Below are positions 2,783 through 42,972 of a DNA stretch of 43,560 nucleotides, piece after piece. This DNA is from an uncultured Bacteroidales bacterium (lineage in GTDB: Bacteria > Bacteroidota > Bacteroidia > Bacteroidales > Paludibacteraceae): assembly GCA_902774185.1 (NCBI GenBank), contig CACYHE010000015.1:1-43560 (forward strand), read 5' to 3'. The translations under genes were made by a program, and so were the position numbers. Under the pieces are notes generated by a model that saw only the letters and a list, made by a program, of their open reading frames with translations, was not told where the DNA came from and did not search any database. Numbering within the stretch: position 1 is the first letter of the stretch; every line of letters begins with the position of its first letter.

Positions 2783-5700
2783 ATGAAAAGAAAACCAATA
2801 CTGCGATTAATGATTTGCATGGCGATGCTGGTAGCATCCCAAGTGATCTACGGTGCCATACCGGAAGAGACCGACGTACAAACCGTCTGCCTGGCAGAGG
2901 GTGAGGCCTTTGAATGGTATGGTAAGAACTATACGAACTCGGGTTCTTATGAGTATCTCGAGAAAGATCAATACGAGCAGGATAGTGTCTTGCACATTCT
3001 CAAACTGACCGTCAATAGGGCGTACTATATCACCCGGCGTATTCCTGTGTGCGACCAGAGTTCGCTCTACTATAACGGTACAATCTATACAGAGGACACC
3101 GATATCGTGGAGAATCTTCATACCGTAAATAATTGCGACAGTATCATCACTACCGAGATTCGTTTCGGTCAAGAGTTCCGCAGACGGGATACGATGATCA
3201 TCCATGCCAGCGATGCCAAACCGATCTATTGGCACGAGATGGAAGTGAAGGGTCCCGGTTTAATGACCGACCATTATATCAACCAACAAGGTTGTGACTC
3301 GGTATATGAGGTGATGGTCTTTATCGAAGAAGATAATGTCCGCTTGACGACAGCTTCAATCTGTAAGGTGGATACCCCCTATGTTTGGCGTGACTACAAA
3401 TACTCCGACGTTGGTGTTTATTACAAAGATGACACCATTTGGACAAAAGATAAAAGCAGAGACTCCCTCATCTATCGTTTGTACCTGACGATCAACGACA
3501 ACCCGGAGAGAACCTACTCCATCAATCTCTGTCCCGGTAGTATTCAGACTTATCGAGGCAAGGTGTATCAGACTGAAGGTGTGTATTACGATACCATTCC
3601 TTCCGTCACCGGCTGTGACACCATCACCAAGATCGTTGTTACCAACCTGTCGGACCATATTCAGGTAGATAGTATTCGGTTATGGCCCGGAAAGACCTAT
3701 ACATGGAGAAACGACAGCACCTATACCTATTTAGATGCAAATCGCCAAGACATCTTTATCAGCGGTACCAACCAATACGGGTGCGATAGTTCCTATCGAC
3801 TGATTATCACGTACATTCCTATGTTTGAGAAGACTGAGGATGTCGATTTCTGTTGGTCTAAAGAAGAACCGTATTACTTTTGGCACGGTAAATTCCAATT
3901 AAGTAAAGACACCACTGTCTATGATACCGTCCTCGCTAAATTCCAAACAGAACTGGATACGGCGTATACGCTCAACCTGCATATGCGTTATGCGTCCGCT
4001 CCAACCTATTTGTACCGGGAGATATGCAGTTTAGGCGCAGGTGTGGAGGACTTCCCGGACATCAAGGAGGAAGGCATTCATTACGATACCTTGACCAACC
4101 AATACGGATGCGACTCGGTGCTGGTCATCAACGTCAAGTATAACCCGCAGAATATCACGTTCTACGACCGTGTCAAATACGGTACTACGGTCAATTGGTA
4201 CGGTCAGGAACTGGGAGCAGAAGAAGGTATTTATGACTACATACCGGATAATCATATTGTCGGTCTTTGCGATACGATTTATCACTGTAACCTCAAATGG
4301 TGGTATCCTTTTGCCAGAAACTACGATGACACCATATGCGAGCAACGCTTGGCGAATGGCGAGATGTATATATGGAAACAAGACCCGTATGAGATTGCTT
4401 TCCGTCTGAACAAAGATGCAAACGGTTATCGGGATTCTATCTTCTACAACCAAGACTCGACCTATTCACTACATCTGCATGTGGTTAAACAGAATATCCA
4501 CCGGGATACGATCCATCTGTGCGAAGGTAGTTCCTATTCGGTAACGTGGAGCGACGGAAGTACGCGTATTCTGAATACCGAAGGATATTATTTGGATACC
4601 TTCCCTGCTATCGGAGCCAACCGTCAGGGCTGCGACAGTATCATCGAGTATTTCGTAGTCGTTCATAAGCCTGACCGCAGAACGCTACCGGATGCTCATG
4701 TAGCAGATACTGCCAAGCAGTATGTATGGGAGATACGGGAATGGAACAAGAAGATCACGTTGCCGGTTCATAAAGAGTTAGGTTACGAGTTCTTCTACGA
4801 CACCCTCCGCTCCAACTCTTTCGGGTGCGATAGTGTGATCTACCGGTTGAAGTTGATCATAGACACGACGTATTTCTTCGAGGAAAAGATCACCATATGT
4901 CATCCTTACACCTGGGAAGGGCACCTGTTGCAAGGCAAGCCCTATATCGTGGAGAAATCCGGAGTTTATTGGGATAGTCTGCGTACCAAAGTAACCAATG
5001 TGGACAGTGTGTATAAACTGGTTGTGGATACGTTCCCCAATTATCTGATTCGTGAGAATGTGGTAATCTGTCAAGGAGACTCGGCTGATTTCTTCGGAGA
5101 GCGAATCAGGACAGCAGGTATCTACCGTCACACGGATCTTACCGTAGATGGTTGTGACTCCATCACGGAATGGATTGTTAATATTATTCCGGTGGCTTCG
5201 CCTACGGTTATTGAGATCAACCGTTCGGACAAGGAGATTCCTTACACATGGGAGCGTCGTAATGCCGATGGTTCCCTCAAAAACACGTCCTCCTACAGTT
5301 GGCCGGGACTCTATCGCGATACCGTCAAGTCTTCCCGTGCTTGTGATAGTATTTTGATCTTGGACCTCAAGGTTTGGCCTACCTACAAAGTAACGGTAAA
5401 AGATACCGTTTGTGCCTCCTCGTTACCCTACGAATGGCACAATCGATTATTCAACTCCGATACGGTCTATGTCGATTCGATGCAAACCGTGATGCATTAT
5501 GACTCTATCGTCACCTTGGAATTAAAAGTATTAAAAACGGACATCACGGAGATACCTATTAACATGTGTTTTGGGCAACCCTACACCTATAACAAAATCA
5601 CTTATACCCAAGGCGGAAGATATACCCAACGCTTGACCAATTCGCTTGGCTGCGACAGTATCATCGTGCTGCAGATCAAAGAATTAGGACAAATCATGAC

Positions 5701-8422
5701 CAGCCAAAGTGTACACGTGAACGATTCCTTCACTTGGGTGGTTCCCGGTAAACCGGTCAGCCATACGTACTACGACTCAGGCACCTATTACGATACTGTA
5801 CCTGCCTCGAACGGTTGCGACAGTATATTGGAGTTACGCCTCACTATCCATGCCAAGATAGTGCTTGACCAACGCACGATACAGGAATGTGAAGACAACC
5901 TACCCTACCTCTGGCGTTCCGTTAAACCGCTCTATAACGATACCATCCTATTGGATACCGTCAAGTCGGACATCACGGATACGATCCATGTGGTTGATTT
6001 CAAAGTACTGCGTGCTTCAAGAGATACCATTCATCCTATCCTTTGCGAAGGGGATTTCTATGACTATAGCGGTAAGCGTTACATGCGTGATACTTTGATT
6101 CACGACACCACCTATTCGGAATTGGGCTGCGCCAAGACGATTTACTCCATTGACCTTCGTTTCCGAAAAGTAAACAACCAGGATATCCCGTTGAAGACCA
6201 GTGACAAGAAACCCTACACATGGATATCACCGGCAGGGAATACCTTTATCATCCCTACCCAAAATATCAGTACCCACCAAGTGGAACGTACCGATACGGT
6301 GCGTTACAAGGACGGAAAATGTGACTCCATTCGGTATCATCTGATCCTTTCAATCGGGCAAACCTATTATTTCTCCGACTCTATTCACCTCTGTCTGCCG
6401 GACACAATCGAATGGCACGGACAACAGATTACGAAGGGTGGTATTTATTACGATAGCTTACAGACGAAAGGATTCGCATTCGACAGTATCTACGAATTGC
6501 GAGTCGGAGCCCACAACGATACTATCATTAGAGAGAACTATAGTATTCCTGCCGGAACGACGATTAAGATTCACGGAATCGAGATCACGGAAACAGGTAA
6601 ACATACGAAGCAGTATATCGACCAACATGGTTGCGACAGTATCTATGAGTTCAATGTGAATGTGGTTCATCCCAAAGTGGTTATTAACAGAGATACAACG
6701 ATCTGCGAAGGTGATTTCGCGCCGTTCTACGGCAAGACATACACCAAAGAAGGAACGTATCAATATATCTCCCAAAGCGGTGACTCCGTTGTGAACCTGA
6801 CACTGCACGTTAATCGAACGAGCCTGACCCGCTTAGATACAGTGATCGCGTCCTACGTGAATCCTCCTTATGTCATCCATAACAAGGAGTACAGGCAGGC
6901 AGGTATGTATTACGACACGTTGGTGAACCGCTTCCATTGTGATAGTGTGATCTTAATCAATCTGGTCATCACGGATCACTATTCTGATTGGGACGCAATA
7001 CCGCTTTGCCCGGGTGCACAACTGGAGATAGAAGGTCACGTCATTACCAAAGCCGGTCTGTACACCTTCACTCTTCCATCGCACACACAACTGATGGACA
7101 GTCTGCATTGCGTACACGTCTATGATGCGCCGGCATTTGACCTGGAACCGGTGAAAAGGGAGATCTGTCAAGGAGATACCGTTGAGTATGGAGGTAAGAA
7201 ATTCACTACCACCGGTAATTATGAACTGCGTTTCACCTCGTCTAAAGGTTGCGACAGTATCATGCACTTGGATCTCACCGTATATCCTACCTATCATCAT
7301 GATACTGTCATTTATAAAACAGATTACGACAAACCCATCAAGTGGTTTAACTCCACCTATGACTCAACCGGTGTCTATCAACATAGAGAACCCACGCTCG
7401 GTCATATGTGTGACAGTACGTTCACCCTTAAGTTGACAGTGGTAGAAACCCAACGCGACACAGTGGAAGACAGTATTTGTGGCGGCATGTCTTATACCTG
7501 GCGGGGTAAGGAATATACCCAAACAGGCTGCTACCGGGATACCGTACGCATGCTGGATGTAAAACAGTCCTATATCCATACCTTGCTGCTGGATGTGAAA
7601 GATCCGATTGTCATTACTTCTGCCAAGATAGAGGAGGATATATGCGCTGACGCAGAAAGTTTCGATATCACCTTGTCCTTCCGTGGCGGAACACCGAAGA
7701 AGTATAACATCCGCTTTGACGAGGTAGCAAAGAAAGCCGGCTTTGTGGATATCGTAGATGAGCCCTTCGACCAAACGCTCAAAGCACATATCGCACTACC
7801 GCAATTCAAAAATGTGGTTTATCAAAATCACACCGCTTATGTACAACCGAACTACTACAGCCTGCGTATTGAGTTGGATAACGACATATGCGGTATTGAA
7901 CGCTCCGACAGTATCGAGATGCTGATTCGTTACCCGAGTTGGGTAATCGAGCAGAACTGGGGAGATATCGTCATGCCACTGAGTGCGGAGTATAACGGCG
8001 GCTATGAGTTCATCAAGACAGAATGGTACGTGAACCATGTGCTGCAACCAAGCACAGGCACCGGTTACCTGCAGAGCCCGAACTTATTCCCAGGCGATGA
8101 AGTAATGATGATGGCTATACGTAAGGGCGAGAATAAAGCGGTACCGAGTTGTGCTATTGTAATCAGCGATTTCAGTACCAAGGTACATGACACGCCGGTC
8201 ATCGTCTATCCGACACAGGCGCCGAGACATGCACCCGTTGTAACGATAGCGGCACAACAAAGAGGTACATATGCCATCTATTCGTTCACCGGAACGCTGA
8301 TCACCGAAGGCAACTTGATCGACGGAGACACACAAGTAAGACTTCCGGCTGTCAGCGGAATGTACTTCATCCATACGACATTGGATCAAGAAAGTCAAAC
8401 GCACAAAGTGCTGATCTATTAA
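2783..8422 (+). CDS. Giant secreted repeat protein with T9SS-like C-terminal domain
   Basis: An 1879-residue protein starting with a signal peptide (MKRKPILRLMICMAMLVASQ). From about residue 30 to 1590 it consists of about 28 degenerate units of 45-70 residues. Each has a Trp/Tyr-Gly 'WHGK-Y' turn, a 'G-YYDT' strand, and a closing GCDSI-type motif followed by a beta strand. Well-preserved GCDS copies alternate with eroded ones (for example NVDSV, ELDTA, GCAKT). A non-repeat Ig-like region follows (about 1590-1800). The last 75 residues (VIVYPTQAP ... GTYAIYSFTG ... GMYFIHTT ... HKVLIY) resemble a T9SS type A sorting domain. It is probably secreted by the type IX system and held at the surface, with the upstream barrel as partner. 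The ligand is unknown. It is followed by a strong bidirectional terminator. Confidence 0.85.
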   Translation: MKRKPILRLMICMAMLVASQVIYGAIPEETDVQTVCLAEGEAFEWYGKNYTNSGSYEYLEKDQYEQDSVLHILKLTVNRAYYITRRIPVCDQSSLYYNGTIYTEDTDIVENLHTVNNCDSIITTEIRFGQEFRRRDTMIIHASDAKPIYWHEMEVKGPGLMTDHYINQQGCDSVYEVMVFIEEDNVRLTTASICKVDTPYVWRDYKYSDVGVYYKDDTIWTKDKSRDSLIYRLYLTINDNPERTYSINLCPGSIQTYRGKVYQTEGVYYDTIPSVTGCDTITKIVVTNLSDHIQVDSIRLWPGKTYTWRNDSTYTYLDANRQDIFISGTNQYGCDSSYRLIITYIPMFEKTEDVDFCWSKEEPYYFWHGKFQLSKDTTVYDTVLAKFQTELDTAYTLNLHMRYASAPTYLYREICSLGAGVEDFPDIKEEGIHYDTLTNQYGCDSVLVINVKYNPQNITFYDRVKYGTTVNWYGQELGAEEGIYDYIPDNHIVGLCDTIYHCNLKWWYPFARNYDDTICEQRLANGEMYIWKQDPYEIAFRLNKDANGYRDSIFYNQDSTYSLHLHVVKQNIHRDTIHLCEGSSYSVTWSDGSTRILNTEGYYLDTFPAIGANRQGCDSIIEYFVVVHKPDRRTLPDAHVADTAKQYVWEIREWNKKITLPVHKELGYEFFYDTLRSNSFGCDSVIYRLKLIIDTTYFFEEKITICHPYTWEGHLLQGKPYIVEKSGVYWDSLRTKVTNVDSVYKLVVDTFPNYLIRENVVICQGDSADFFGERIRTAGIYRHTDLTVDGCDSITEWIVNIIPVASPTVIEINRSDKEIPYTWERRNADGSLKNTSSYSWPGLYRDTVKSSRACDSILILDLKVWPTYKVTVKDTVCASSLPYEWHNRLFNSDTVYVDSMQTVMHYDSIVTLELKVLKTDITEIPINMCFGQPYTYNKITYTQGGRYTQRLTNSLGCDSIIVLQIKELGQIMTSQSVHVNDSFTWVVPGKPVSHTYYDSGTYYDTVPASNGCDSILELRLTIHAKIVLDQRTIQECEDNLPYLWRSVKPLYNDTILLDTVKSDITDTIHVVDFKVLRASRDTIHPILCEGDFYDYSGKRYMRDTLIHDTTYSELGCAKTIYSIDLRFRKVNNQDIPLKTSDKKPYTWISPAGNTFIIPTQNISTHQVERTDTVRYKDGKCDSIRYHLILSIGQTYYFSDSIHLCLPDTIEWHGQQITKGGIYYDSLQTKGFAFDSIYELRVGAHNDTIIRENYSIPAGTTIKIHGIEITETGKHTKQYIDQHGCDSIYEFNVNVVHPKVVINRDTTICEGDFAPFYGKTYTKEGTYQYISQSGDSVVNLTLHVNRTSLTRLDTVIASYVNPPYVIHNKEYRQAGMYYDTLVNRFHCDSVILINLVITDHYSDWDAIPLCPGAQLEIEGHVITKAGLYTFTLPSHTQLMDSLHCVHVYDAPAFDLEPVKREICQGDTVEYGGKKFTTTGNYELRFTSSKGCDSIMHLDLTVYPTYHHDTVIYKTDYDKPIKWFNSTYDSTGVYQHREPTLGHMCDSTFTLKLTVVETQRDTVEDSICGGMSYTWRGKEYTQTGCYRDTVRMLDVKQSYIHTLLLDVKDPIVITSAKIEEDICADAESFDITLSFRGGTPKKYNIRFDEVAKKAGFVDIVDEPFDQTLKAHIALPQFKNVVYQNHTAYVQPNYYSLRIELDNDICGIERSDSIEMLIRYPSWVIEQNWGDIVMPLSAEYNGGYEFIKTEWYVNHVLQPSTGTGYLQSPNLFPGDEVMMMAIRKGENKAVPSCAIVISDFSTKVHDTPVIVYPTQAPRHAPVVTIAAQQRGTYAIYSFTGTLITEGNLIDGDTQVRLPAVSGMYFIHTTLDQESQTHKVLIY

Positions 8423-39946: not shown

Positions 39947-40381
39947 CTATTTGAGTTCCTGATAGATCATGGCGCGGATAAAGTTATCGAAGCGGAAATA
40001 GTATTTCTGCTTGCCGGATTTGTCGAGAGGGGCTTGCGGGTCAGGCGCACCTTTGAGCTGGGATTCAAAACGACGGCGGTAGTCCTCCAGGAGGGAGCGT
40101 TGCTCATCGGAGGCTGTGTCGGGGAACTTATAGGCATAGATGAGGGCGGTGGTACGTTTTGCCGCTTCGCCGAAATGATTTAGATGGGCAAGTTCGTTGC
40201 CTTGAGGTGGTTTTTGTTTGTAGTCACGTTTGTTTCTCTGGAGATAGGTTTCCGGATCGCATTCTTTGGAAAGTGCTCCGTTCGGAGCATGGAGATGTTT
40301 GCGGCGCGTGATAAGTTTGTGTTGGCTGTCCAAAGCGCCGGTTGTGTAATCGATGCCAGGATCATAAAAGATTTTTCCCAT
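39947..40381 (-). CDS. Unknown 144-residue basic protein
   Basis: No signal peptide or membrane segment. It is charged and Lys/Arg-rich (LITRRKHLHAPNG, YLQRNKRDYKQKPP), then Q...HFGEAAKRTTALIY, LLEDYRRRF, and near the end GKQKYYFRFDNFIRAMIYQEL. The motif order resembles the 116-residue protein at 18859-19209. Both have their own Bacteroidota promoter and a long leader with 11-nt repeats. Convergent with folK, 5 nt apart. Function unknown; a small protein family with leader control is my inference. Confidence 0.7.
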   Translation of the reverse strand: MGKIFYDPGIDYTTGALDSQHKLITRRKHLHAPNGALSKECDPETYLQRNKRDYKQKPPQGNELAHLNHFGEAAKRTTALIYAYKFPDTASDEQRSLLEDYRRRFESQLKGAPDPQAPLDKSGKQKYYFRFDNFIRAMIYQELK

Positions 40382-40472
40382 ATTCTGAATAATTTAAGAT
40401 TATATCTGTTTTGTCAGAGTGATTAGAGAGGTTTGACGTCTTAAAATGGCCATGTGATGCAACCAATAACCA

Positions 40473-40560
40473 CCTACTAATAACCTACTAATCACCTACT
40501 AATAACCTACTAAAATCATACTAATGATGTACTAATCGCATACTATAATATGCTAAATCG
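40473..40560. repeat. 11-nt tandem array, 8 units, in the leader of the 144-residue protein
   Basis: Eight consecutive units in exact 11-nt phase (88 nt) with plus-strand consensus CCTACTAATNA. The upstream end of the array coincides with the predicted transcription start. Units nearest the promoter are the most diverged. Confidence 0.9.
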
Positions 40561-40564
40561 GGTG

Positions 40565-40596
40565 CAAAGGTACTACAAAAAAATGGAATATGCAAA
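40565..40596 (-). promoter_or_regulatory. Promoter of the 144-residue protein gene
   Basis: Minus strand TTTG, 20 nt, TACCTTTG, then CACCCGATTT, similar to the first transcribed bases at dnaA and nrdD. Confidence 0.8.
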
Positions 40597-40726
40597 TTTA
40601 TCCCACAAAAAATTGCATTTTTGTATGTTTTTGCATGTGAATCATTCATTTTAGCCCACAGATTGGACGGATTGGACGGATTTTGGATGGGGTCAACAAT
40701 TGACAACAATTAGACAACAATTATTT
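40597..40726. other. AT-rich spacer with short repeats
   Basis: No coding signal. GATTGGACG occurs twice in tandem (about 40663-40681), and CAACAATT three times with 10-11 nt spacing (about 40694-40722). Nothing else is recognised. Confidence 0.5.
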
Positions 40727-40791
40727 CTTCGCGCTGTTGCGCGAAGCAGGGAACGAAGTATCTATTTGTCAAAAAAGATCAAAAATGATAC

Positions 40792-40815
40792 AAAAAAGCG
40801 CACATGGATGTGCGC
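40792..40815 (-). terminator. Terminator-like stem in array A
   Basis: GCGCACAT stem with loop-less GG turn, followed on the minus strand by six Ts. It is the last hairpin of the array in the minus direction. Confidence 0.7.
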
Positions 40816-40908
40816 GCATAGACGCTATAGAAAGGAAACAGCCGTCTCCCAGGCGGAACAAAGGACGAAATGAGCGGGCAATAGTATTGCCCTGCAAGAA
40901 ACGAAGTC

Positions 40909-40946
40909 AAAAAAAAATCCCCCACTCTGCAGGAGAGAGGGGGATT
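40909..40946 (-). terminator. Terminator-like stem in array A
   Basis: ATCCCCC/GGGGGAT stem with an inner CTCT/GAGAG extension, followed by nine Ts on the minus strand. Nearly the same hairpin ends the aquaporin gene at 42082-42116. Confidence 0.8.
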
Positions 40947-40948
40947 GG

Positions 40949-40998
40949 ATAGGATGCTATAGGACACAATAGGTCGCTATAGGAGGTTATAGAAAGGC
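40949..40998. repeat. 10-nt tandem array (ATAGGNNNNN), 5 units
   Basis: ATAGG followed by five variable bases, repeated five times with exact 10-nt spacing within array A. The last unit is ATAGA. Confidence 0.8.
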
Positions 40999-41056
40999 GA
41001 GGCGGCGTTTTCTATCCGCCAAGATTGGACGGACACATGAGAAAACGCCGAACGGG

Positions 41057-41122
41057 AGGGCGAACATGCCCGGTCGTGGAGAACGGGCAGCGAAGCGGTA
41101 AACCGCCTACACCGCGAGCCCT
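41057..41122. repeat. Three-way-junction module in array A
   Basis: Outer stem AGGGC/GCCCT. The first arm is TGCCCG with 11-nt loop and CGGGCA. The second arm is GCGGT-AA-ACCGC, preceded by GCGAA. It matches the module at 41888-41952 with a fully different but still complementary first arm. Confidence 0.75.
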
Positions 41123-41270
41123 ACACGGGAAACGGAATAACGGGATAGCGGTATAACGAAAGGGAACGGCGGAGTTGACGATCCGCCAAGGGGACGTACT
41201 ATTACGCGCTCTCCGAAAGAGCGCGCACAGGACACTAAAGCGGGATTCAATCCCGAGGAAAGGAAGAAAG

Positions 41271-41297
41271 AAAACGCCCGAGAGGTTGGCTCGGGCG
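41271..41297 (-). terminator. Terminator of the GldL-like gene
   Basis: CGCCCGAG, 7-nt loop, CTCGGGCG, then TTTTC and T-rich sequence on the minus strand, about 20 nt after the stop codon at 41319. Confidence 0.85.
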
Positions 41298-41318
41298 GTA
41301 AGATATTTGATAGGTAGA

Positions 41319-41729
41319 TTATTTCTTTTTAACAAAAAATATACAACCCAATATGCCAGCCAGAAGACTAAGGTTCATTAAGGTGAAGCATGAAAGCATC
41401 ACTATTAGAGAACCTCCAGGCCAATGCAAATGCCGGAAGAGAAAGCCACAAATAGCAAGAGCAAAAAAGATGAAAGCTATGCCTTCCGTATTACGCAGAT
41501 GTTTAGCGACAGAGAGTCCCTTTTCCACATATGCATTCAAAGCACCATATTTGAATATATATATTGCCAAAAAGATGAATAATAAAGAAACAAGAAGAGG
41601 AACAACTACACTCAGTATAAAACAACCACCCGGCCAATGCAAGGTTCTGAATAAAACACCATCAACCAACACGGTTCCAATAAAACCACCGTACAAGGCT
41701 AATAATCCTTGAAAAACTGATTTTTTCAT
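41319..41729 (-). CDS. Small membrane protein with two HWPGG motifs (GldL-like)
   Basis: A 136-residue protein with four predicted membrane segments. The segment FRTLHWPGG (about 27-35) recurs as FRHLHWPGG (about 98-106), so the protein looks like an internal duplication of a two-helix unit. An HWPG motif after the first helix is typical of GldL, the T9SS motor protein. However, GldL is larger with a cytoplasmic tail, and no gldM or other gld genes lie nearby. It is best called a GldL-related membrane protein of unknown role. It has its own promoter and terminator. Confidence 0.7.
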   Translation of the reverse strand: MKKSVFQGLLALYGGFIGTVLVDGVLFRTLHWPGGCFILSVVVPLLVSLLFIFLAIYIFKYGALNAYVEKGLSVAKHLRNTEGIAFIFFALAICGFLFRHLHWPGGSLIVMLSCFTLMNLSLLAGILGCIFFVKKK

Positions 41730-41759
41730 AAATAATTAATTTTAGTAATAAAGATGCCG

Positions 41760-41791
41760 CAAAGGTACAAAGAATTTTTGATATATGCAAA
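41760..41791 (-). promoter_or_regulatory. Promoter of the GldL-like gene
   Basis: Minus strand TTTG, 20 nt, TACCTTTG, about 30 nt before the start codon. Confidence 0.8.
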
Positions 41792-41887
41792 TAAAAGGAG
41801 ATTTTTCTGCGAAAAATATCGGATAGTATCCGATGACAATGAACAAAGCCCGCATATAATTGCGGGAAAAGAACGAAGACGACAGAC

Positions 41888-41952
41888 GCGAGGGCGAAGG
41901 GTCCGCACGTAGAGGGCGGACGGCGAAGCGGTAAACCGCCATATGCCCGAGC
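41888..41952. repeat. Three-way-junction module in array B
   Basis: Outer stem GGGC/GCCC extended across tandem G-A mismatches to a further GC pair. The first arm is GTCCGC with 9-nt loop and GCGGAC; the second arm is GCGGT-AA-ACCGC preceded by GGCGAA, identical to array A. Confidence 0.75.
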
Positions 41953-42081
41953 ACTACAAGAGCAGGCAATCAGATTGCCCTGCAATAGAAGAAAAAGAAA
42001 CTCCGCGCTATCACGCGGAGCAGGAAACGAACTATAAAATATGAAACAGCCGCCTCTCAGGCGGGACAATGAACGAAAATG

Positions 42082-42116
42082 AAAAAATCCCCCTACTCTA
42101 CGGGAGAGAGGGGGAT
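42082..42116 (-). terminator. Terminator of the aquaporin gene
   Basis: ATCCCCC/GGGGGAT stem followed by six Ts on the minus strand, 40 nt after the stop codon. A small GTCCAAAT hairpin precedes it. Confidence 0.88.
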
Positions 42117-42155
42117 CGGGATGTCCAAATAGTATTTGGACGTAATGGACGCTGA

Positions 42156-42869
42156 TTATTTTTTGCAGGAACCTTCGCAGGTGAGGCATTTGTAGCAAAG
42201 ACCGGCGAGGGCAGCGCCTACAAGCGGAGCTACGATGAAGAGCCAGAGTTGCGGAAGGGCAAGTGCGTTCTCGGAGAAGATAGCCTGCGAGATGGAACGT
42301 GCAGGGTTCACCGAAGTATTGGTCAGAGGAATGGAGATGAGGTGGATAAGGGTCAGGGTAAGACCAATTGCCAAGCCACCGAAAGCGCCGTTAGCATGCT
42401 TAGAGTCCGTAACACCGAGAATGACCATCAAGAAGACAAAAGTCAGGACAGCTTCGATAGCGAAAGCACCCCATACATTGGTCTGCAGGTAGCCAGCAGC
42501 GAGGTCAGCCTCACCGAAGAAATCTCCGTAACCGTTAGCGGCAAAGGTACCAATCTCCATACCGGCAGATTTAGCGATACCAAAGAGGATCGCGGCTGCA
42601 GCAATTGCACCGAGGATTTGCGCACACCAGTAGCACAACATCTCTTTGGCGCTCATGCGACCGTTCACAAAAACACCAAGGCTGACAGCGGGGTTAAGAT
42701 GGGCACCGCTGATATGACCGATGCCATAAGCAGCTGCTACGATGGTCAAACCGAAGGCCAAAGCAACACCCAGAAATCCAACATGTCCAAACAGGGCTGT
42801 TCCACAACCGCCCAATACCAATACAGCTGTTCCGAAGAACTCTGCTGCGAATTTATTACATAACTTCAT
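42156..42869 (-). CDS. aqpZ: Aquaporin (MIP family water channel)
   Basis: A 237-residue six-helix channel with both Asn-Pro-Ala motifs, HLNPAVSLG (about 57-65) and SVNPARSIS (about 186-194). It has a narrow aquaporin-type pore rather than the glyceroporin Asp after the second motif. Length and motifs match AqpZ. An odd feature is a cysteine-rich tail, CYKCLTCEGSCKK, which could bind metal or form disulfides. It has its own promoter at 42907-42937. Confidence 0.92.
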   Translation of the reverse strand: MKLCNKFAAEFFGTAVLVLGGCGTALFGHVGFLGVALAFGLTIVAAAYGIGHISGAHLNPAVSLGVFVNGRMSAKEMLCYWCAQILGAIAAAAILFGIAKSAGMEIGTFAANGYGDFFGEADLAAGYLQTNVWGAFAIEAVLTFVFLMVILGVTDSKHANGAFGGLAIGLTLTLIHLISIPLTNTSVNPARSISQAIFSENALALPQLWLFIVAPLVGAALAGLCYKCLTCEGSCKK

Positions 42870-42906
42870 AACGTATAATATTTAAAAGTTAAACGTTTTG
42901 CGAGTG

Positions 42907-42937
42907 CAAAGTTACTACAAAAAAATGACATGTGCAA
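42907..42937 (-). promoter_or_regulatory. Promoter of the aquaporin gene
   Basis: Minus strand CTTG, 20 nt, TAACTTTG. Around the -33 box is an imperfect inverted repeat ACATGTGC/GCACATG (42929-42946). Confidence 0.75.
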
Positions 42938-42972
42938 GCGCACATGCCACTTTTCTTAAAAATTTGTACTTT

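Follow-up and report, generated by a model that had tools for sequence, protein, structure and literature searches.

The REP-associated tyrosine transposase (RAYT) TnpA-REP is reported to bind and cleave single-stranded DNA, in a study that calls the spread of repetitive extragenic palindromes (REPs) poorly understood (PMC8266576). Two other described groups bear on the present case. The CGTC REPs have stems of 8-9 bp, loops of 4-5 nt and no extra tag bases; none was seen beside a transposase, and Di Nocera (2013) left open what moves them (PMC3733652). The subclass 2.4 TnpA-Y1 genes are reported to carry in-frame REPs and occur in Cyanobacteria, Bacteroidetes and other phyla; their REPs have GT[AG]G feet, their median length is 194 aa and their motifs are NH[IFV]H and YIxNNP (PMC6006769). 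Here we describe two hairpin arrays, A (positions 40727-41300) and B (41818-42155), in a 43,560-nucleotide stretch of an uncultured Paludibacteraceae bacterium (contig CACYHE010000015.1), hereafter the window. In our reading (probability about 0.83), each array is a head-to-tail mosaic of REP-type palindromes that several RAYT (TnpA-REP, HUH/Y1) transposases encoded in this genome have left behind. An initial annotation had seen in them two hairpin arrays made of the same modules in shuffled order; that observation is confirmed, and the interpretation given with it is partly supported.

Arrays A and B are built from tagged palindromes

Read on the minus strand, the arrays show a unit of about 31-40 nt, in which a 5' tag of about 14 nt with a YGTY core is followed by a hairpin of 6-8 bp with a loop mostly of 3 nt (for example TTTCGTTCATTGTC-CCGCCTGAGAGGCGG at 42050 and ACTTCGTTCCCTG-CTTCGCGCAACAGCGCGAAG at 40727). 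The two stretches hold 15 perfect-stem hairpins; on the minus strand, ten have YGTY at the tag position, two have CTTC and three have neither, whereas YGTY is absent from that position on the plus strand in all 15. The GAAACGAA-like word noticed earlier in the linkers corresponds to the 5' tag (TTCGT) read in reverse complement. A scan for tag plus hairpin, with a tag matrix trained partly on units of the window, found eight units in the window, all on the minus strand and all within the arrays. When 37 stretches were added from the source genome of the window (G000; an 87%-complete assembly of 2.19 Mb in 35 contigs) and from a relative (G021), the scan found 97 units, compared with 4 for a reversed tag, a ratio that measures specificity and not density, since the stretches were chosen around covariance-model or blastn matches. 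The commonest combination is a 7-bp stem with a 3-nt loop (47/97 units), and 3-nt loops occur in 73/97. Our unit alignments (A4 and A5) show the conserved unpaired 5' word and short palindrome that define a REP; the word is YGTY, not GTAG, with T or C after the GT in all rows.

The two arrays have modules in common, in differing order, and share the direct repeats D2 (56 nt, 75%), D4 (44 nt, 75%), D5 (38 nt, 84%), D6 (36 nt, 86%) and D10 (24 nt, 79%); the plus-strand orders first given for the modules hold on reading the sequence, as do their single orientation and the complementarity of the stems in both arrays. There are further hairpins beyond those first listed, at 40798, 41168, 41205 and 41241 in A and at 41818, 41849 and 42123 in B, and a gene-sized open reading frame (41319-41729, minus strand), inside the interval originally delimited, separates the arrays.

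Units with unlike stems are stacked on one strand. In the window and the 37 stretches, both members share an orientation in 36/36 pairs of neighbouring units separated by less than 300 nt; two units of ambiguous strand were excluded from these counts, and the pairs are partly dependent, one array of contig C3 being present twice. The hairpins differ in 30/36 pairs and the spacing is 31-49 nt in 23/36, which rules out plain tandem duplication. Head-to-tail folded sites with variable stems are, in outline, also what attC arrays look like, but the units have a 5' tag, sit at RAYT genes and are mostly too closely spaced to leave room for genes; an integron-like cassette array, or the ends of a non-RAYT insertion sequence, is barely credible.

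Compensatory change between the arrays had been taken to mean that a folded form is maintained. That argument stands for helices P1 (17/20 copies) and P2 of the junction element described below; it fails for the REP stems, where paired changes do not indicate RNA, since palindromes recognised as single-stranded DNA vary alike. Stem covariation in A5 (38 double-change cells, 100% paired) was excluded as evidence because perfect stems had been selected, which makes it circular; the tests free of this bias are those on the stems of the in-gene inserts and on the junction, given below.

RAYT-like genes have palindromes beside and inside them

Further copies, the check proposed with the initial annotation, were found by blastn and covariance model in G000 and in genomes of the same genus; blastn of G000 placed array copies on eight other contigs (E <= 1e-3). 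Those on contigs C16 and C19 sit at genes encoding MPDHLH or MPDHFH, and tblastn with the C16 protein found six such genes in G000 (C16, C32, C17, C4, C19 and C25), together with a fragment of 18 residues where C32 ends. All six have palindromes adjoining or inside the gene, C32 with another tag. The C16 locus has the stem of array unit B5 both inside and adjoining its gene; in C19 the repeat is present several times in frame; C4 has the same palindrome twice, N-terminally in the frame and mid-frame; and C17 has one just ahead of the start and again mid-gene. The C17 and C4 units look double-footed. By eye, the in-gene palindrome of C32 has the tag of the flanking ones (TTTCTTTGTATTT), a different stem and the opposite orientation. 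The assertion that no known element matches does not hold: the modules are built like REPs, RAYT-like genes have them alongside and within, and the conserved linker word is the tag in reverse complement.

Thirty-four RAYT loci were examined; four have no motif-fitting frame (L086, L093, L094 and L095) and 21 of the remaining 30 were aligned (A1). The 21 proteins, from seven genera, share invariant MP[DN]HxH and YxxxNPxR motifs with strong divergence between them. The NCBIfam RAYT model (NF047646, REP_Tyr_transpos) was matched by 8/8 proteins at E 2.6e-11 to 2.6e-4, with 20.9 to 43.6 bits, all below its curated cut-off of 80. Judged by their sequences, the proteins are divergent RAYT relatives outside the NF047646 equivalog.

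A collection of species genomes was scanned with two short conserved patterns, hence for near kin only, and the best 80 of 320 relatives were kept; 74/80 are titled Bacteroidales or Paludibacteraceae, many with ruminant gut sites in the title. Among viral contigs, 19 pattern matches yielded no RAYT relative by tblastn. The frame is intact in 77/80 (not in L118, L119 and L122) and measures 235-698 aa, with 74/77 between 326 and 420. DHLH is present in 50/77, and W105 and Q106 of the WQ motif are nearly invariant in alignment A6, which holds 52 of the 66 frames, out of 77, that passed a length filter. An in-frame insert of 18-82 residues lies between the HuH and Tyr motifs in 76/77 relatives, the single insert-free one being left out of the insert tests. 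A perfect stem of at least 7 bp is found in 64/76 inserts, compared with 133/1719 equal-sized windows elsewhere in the same frames, and the inserts are more similar to their own flanks (mean 18.7) than to those of other loci (11.2; permutation p 1e-4).

Two neighbouring observations may be recorded. The frame of a DUF3987 protein (L196:9999-11420, on C5 of G000) also contains REP units, another intragenic case. On C4 (L045:2527-3567 and 3567-6416), the RAYT begins where a Cas9-like gene (RuvC_III, HNH_4) stops, and CRISPR-like repeats follow it; this RAYT seems to have settled between cas9 and a CRISPR array.

Some array units best match individual RAYT loci

Each of the 13 array units was compared by score with the six RAYT loci and with 84 background segments from G000; five score above every background segment at one RAYT locus: A1 and B4 at C19, A3 and B5 at C16, and A2 at C25. 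The assignment of A3 is marginal, and B4 also matches background well. The features are as follows, with the score at the best-matching RAYT locus given against the background maximum.

40727-40760, minus strand: REP unit A1, tag ACTTCGTTCCCTG and hairpin CTTCGCGC..GCGCGAAG; C19, 19 against 12
40798-40829, minus strand: REP unit A2, tag TAGCGTCTATG and GCGCACATCCATGTGCGC; C25, 16 against 11
40841-40872, minus strand: REP unit A3, the AACAGCCG stem of A, an imperfect hairpin, tag TTTCGTCCTTTG; C16, 16.5 against 15.5
40876-40908, minus strand: REP unit A4, tag CTTCGTTTCTTG and GGGCAATACTATTGCCC; no RAYT locus above background
40917-40945, minus strand: intrinsic-terminator-like stem ATCCCCC..GGGGGAT, untagged, with a minus-strand T run
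40990-41119, minus strand: junction element copy A (core 41058-41119), structured, distinct from REPs
41168-41201, minus strand: REP-like unit A5, tag TACGTCCCCTT and GGCGGATCGTCAACTCCGCC; weaker, missed by the tag-plus-hairpin scan; no RAYT match above background
41205-41239, minus strand: REP-like unit A6, tag GTGTCCTGTG and CGCGCTCTTTCGGAGAGCGCG; weaker, missed by the scan; no RAYT match above background
41241-41270, minus strand: possible REP unit A7, CTTTCTTCCTTTCCT and CGGGATTGAATCCCG, lacking YGTY; under the scan threshold
41275-41297, minus strand: terminator-like stem, untagged, directly 3' of the open reading frame 41319-41729 (minus strand)
41818-41848, minus strand: REP unit B1, tag CTTTGTTCATTGTC and ATCGGATACTATCCGAT
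41849-41880, minus strand: REP unit B2, tag CTTCGTTCTTTT and CCCGCAATTATATGCGGG; relatives on C21, C8, C29 and C17
41875-41960, minus strand: junction element copy B (core 41891-41952), P1 arms now unpaired (GGGC/CCGC)
41965-41996, minus strand: REP unit B3, tag TTTCTTCTATTG and GGCAATCTGATTGCC; CTTC replaces YGTY
42001-42034, minus strand: REP unit B4, tag GTTCGTTTCCTG and CTCCGCGTGATAGCGCGGAG; C19, 21.5 against 18.5
42050-42080, minus strand: REP unit B5, tag TTTCGTTCATTGTC and CCGCCTGAGAGGCGG; C16, 26.5 against 12
42087-42116, minus strand: intrinsic-terminator-like stem ATCCCCC..GGGGGAT, untagged
42123-42155, minus strand: REP unit B6, tag CAGCGTCCATTAC and GTCCAAATACTATTTGGAC; directly 3' of the aquaporin gene

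The two ATCCCCC modules, described earlier as terminators, are terminator-like when read on the minus strand. Together with their surroundings they bear on a different view of the arrays, as sequences kept mainly as RNA, namely hairpins in the 3' untranslated regions of minus-strand genes, with transcription termination or protection of mRNA 3' ends as their task. On their strand, both arrays follow minus-strand open reading frames; the region 40300-42950 holds 14 terminator-like sites, all on the minus strand (shuffle mean 3.6); and the tag strand is that of the nearest open reading frame whose 3' end faces the unit in 17/27 clusters. However, 17 against 10 is weak and the reading-frame calls are crude, units also lie in frame within RAYT genes, and a terminator has no need of a conserved 5' tag. 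We consider this view improbable; an effect on neighbouring genes (termination, 3'-end protection), if any, would be secondary.

Read on the minus strand, array B is immediately preceded by an aquaporin-family gene (42156-42869; Pfam MIP, E 5e-48). Tandem repeats of 11 bases (CCTACTAATAA-like, family D1) occupy 40460-40536, upstream of the minus-strand open reading frame 39947-40381, and REP arrays are adjoined by short, loose repeats that contain words like TATAGCGTCCTATT, or such words in reverse complement (window 40949-40994; L009 around 1340-1395).

Units accompany RAYT genes within the genus

A covariance model, R1, was built from 19 units supplied by G000 and gave at least 49 matches in G000 (training copies included) and at least 56 in G021, as expected of a dispersed multicopy element; all R1 counts are lower bounds, with at most 150 candidates scored per genome in a set of 17 chosen genomes and 118 in a set of 61 drawn evenly from the genus. 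In the chosen set, R1 matched 6/6 RAYT-bearing genomes and 0/11 others. In the even draw, RAYT was called at E <= 1e-20 in 41 genomes, all 41 with R1 matches (median 22); the median over the 20 genomes without RAYT is 4 (Mann-Whitney p 2.6e-5, a value that overstates independence because the genomes are related). The five genomes with zero matches all lack RAYT, and 4/5 are 98-100% complete. Several REP matches in G000 (for example C4:48; C24:38553 of 38874) and in G021 (C28:303259 of 303524; C9:30238 of 30334) are no more than a few hundred bases from where the contig ends; the arrays may break the assembly, and the real arrays may be longer.

Several observations weigh against the origin from resident RAYTs. 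The clean split of 6/6 and 0/11 rested on 17 hand-chosen genomes, and the perfect co-occurrence it implied is weakened by the even draw, in which 15/20 genomes without RAYT at that threshold have R1 matches, one of them at least 39; either the units, which accompany the enzyme, persist after its loss, or some enzymes escaped the search. Eight of the 13 array units have no above-background RAYT match, in an assembly that is 87% complete. The tags are not GTAG, and that of C32 lacks YGTY. The Pfam Y1_Tnp cut-off is reached by only 1/10 RAYT proteins, and a family search of the G000 candidates gave no Y1_Tnp match at cut-off. Own flanks are ranked first by only 10/76 inserts and among the top three by 23/76, which we think may be explained by palindrome families common to many loci. 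The strand of the units does not track local GC skew (the majority strand matches its sign in 10/31 regions, p 0.07, if anything the opposite), so that neither a lagging-strand bias nor an orientation set by replication is supported.

A structured junction element shares the intergenic sites

The three-way junction of the arrays is a separate structured element, distinct from the REPs, that shares these intergenic sites. It is present in 18/61 genus genomes at E <= 0.01, in 1-4 copies, 4/18 only at E above 0.003; it is hardly found beyond the genus, and among 120 family genomes the model R2 matches 9 at E <= 0.01, only G000 and G021 strongly and the others at under 23 bits. The sample comprised 20 of 24 sites in genomes other than G000, the P1 test being run without L247 (no blastn match) and L246 (incomplete); L246, L247, L239 and L240 were left out of alignment A8. 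The P1 arms are fully complementary in 17/20 copies, with six arm types; the copies had been found by sequence, not pairing, and the 3' arm could slide one base either way. In P2, 90.7% of cells are paired and there are 10 double-change cells against 2.6 in shuffles; two of five measures do not beat shuffles, namely pairs changed on both sides (3; as high in 126/500) and further pair types (6; 112/500). Of five copies tested, four give better folds than their shuffles, with z from -3.3 to -5.8; for the fifth, z is -1.5. The loops contain TAGGCGGTTTA- and CTCTACG-like words, and the variable part of some copies, such as L243 and L249, holds a REP-like unit.

ARAGORN found no tRNA gene in the window, in agreement with the initial annotation, and Rfam gave no match at gathering score there, nor, in E-value mode, in six junction loci; CRISPR, tRNA, rRNA and known RNA families were rejected for the window. 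Three sub-threshold matches were taken as chance: GcvB in L232 (21.1 against 42 bits), upstream of the copy; M23 in L237 (25.3 against 41.2, E 0.27), overlapping the copy edge on the opposite strand; and Bacteroidales-1, a suggested 6S RNA, at L239:708-909 (32.6 against 60 bits), just upstream of the junction copy.

A junction made by RAYT was rejected, RAYT being present in 14/18 junction genomes and 27/43 others (p 0.37); among 94 RAYT-bearing loci there is one junction match. A role as part of a gene system was also rejected, no neighbour being common to more than 4/18 loci. One upstream gene is common to 2/18, Hsp70/DnaK in the one tested (L243), and Hsp70/DnaK also lies at the right end of the window, next but one to array B. 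The covariation and folding of the junction might favour the sense of the initial annotation, in which a single non-coding RNA gene of several shuffled domains spans the entire region. Against this, dozens of REP units occur in genomes with few or zero junction copies, the junction has neither the RAYT association nor the constant neighbour just sought, and copy B in the window has lost its P1 pairing; a single RNA gene is very improbable.

A predicted fusion of HUH and DprA-like domains, and how units might be stacked

We return to the mosaics as products of resident RAYTs. The predicted fold of these proteins comprises an HUH domain and a C-terminal DprA-like domain: the N-terminal part of the model aligns to the TnpA-REP structure 4ER8, and the C-terminal part to solved DprA. 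No description of an HUH-DprA fusion was found in the open-access literature searched. The predicted fusion would bring together a transposase that cuts strands and the fold of a protein known to handle single-stranded DNA.

By analogy with the studied TnpA-REP-type enzymes, RAYT would bind tag and hairpin as single-stranded DNA, its tyrosine would cut, and the unit would be joined elsewhere; the DprA-like domain, as modelled, may hold the single strand. Stacks could then be built by repeated insertion next to older units. A bolder proposal, which we think rather unlikely, is that the RAYT-DprA fusions are stacking enzymes, adding REP units singly and in one orientation beside units of other families while the DprA-like domain presents single-stranded DNA. 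Arrays would then grow by ordered capture, somewhat like integron cassettes; the in-gene copy would be a resident donor or self-recognition site, and the junction a separate new structured RNA or single-stranded DNA element using the same landing sites. Apart from any such proposal, the junction element is structured and unclassified, and two of its helices show paired changes.

Comparison with known systems

REPtrons of the Escherichia coli type, which combine REPs or bacterial interspersed mosaic elements (BIMEs) with a RAYT, are like the present system in the short palindrome, the conserved 5' word and the many dispersed copies, in copies that flank an HUH/Y1 gene, in several families per genome and in a predicted N-terminal fold that aligns to 4ER8. 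They differ in having GT[AG]G, where the units here have YGTY within a longer motif, and in lacking the C-terminal DprA-like domain predicted here; relative to DprA and ShosA themselves (4LJL, 8ZVA), sequence identity is 16% and 15%, and the domain is here predicted to be fused to an HUH transposase.

The CGTC REPs (PMC3733652) share occurrence in Bacteroidetes and intragenic copies. The YGTY core is similar to their CGTC or TGTC end tag, yet it stands within a longer tag whose extra bases set it further from the stem; stems here are mostly of 7 bp and loops of 3 nt, outside the published ranges, and RAYT-like genes adjoin some families. Since YGTY-tagged palindromes flank and lie within Bacteroidales HUH transposase genes, the question of what moves such palindromes is now testable. 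Head-to-tail pairs are absent or under-represented among the palindromes of that study (PMC3733652), unlike the one-way stacking across families seen here.

Compared by its published description, TnpA-Y1 subclass 2.4 is alike in the in-frame REP between the HuH and Y motifs, the WQ motif, the occurrence in Bacteroidetes and some double-footed units (PMC6006769); insertion of REPs within genes was thus already known from that report. The in-frame insertion that marks the subclass is found here in 76/77 relatives, whereas the GT[AG]G foot is replaced by YGTY, the frames are of 235-698 aa, DHLH is present in 50/77 and an extra DprA-like domain is predicted. What sets this system apart from those known is the tag, the predicted DprA-like domain and the stacking of mosaics in one direction.
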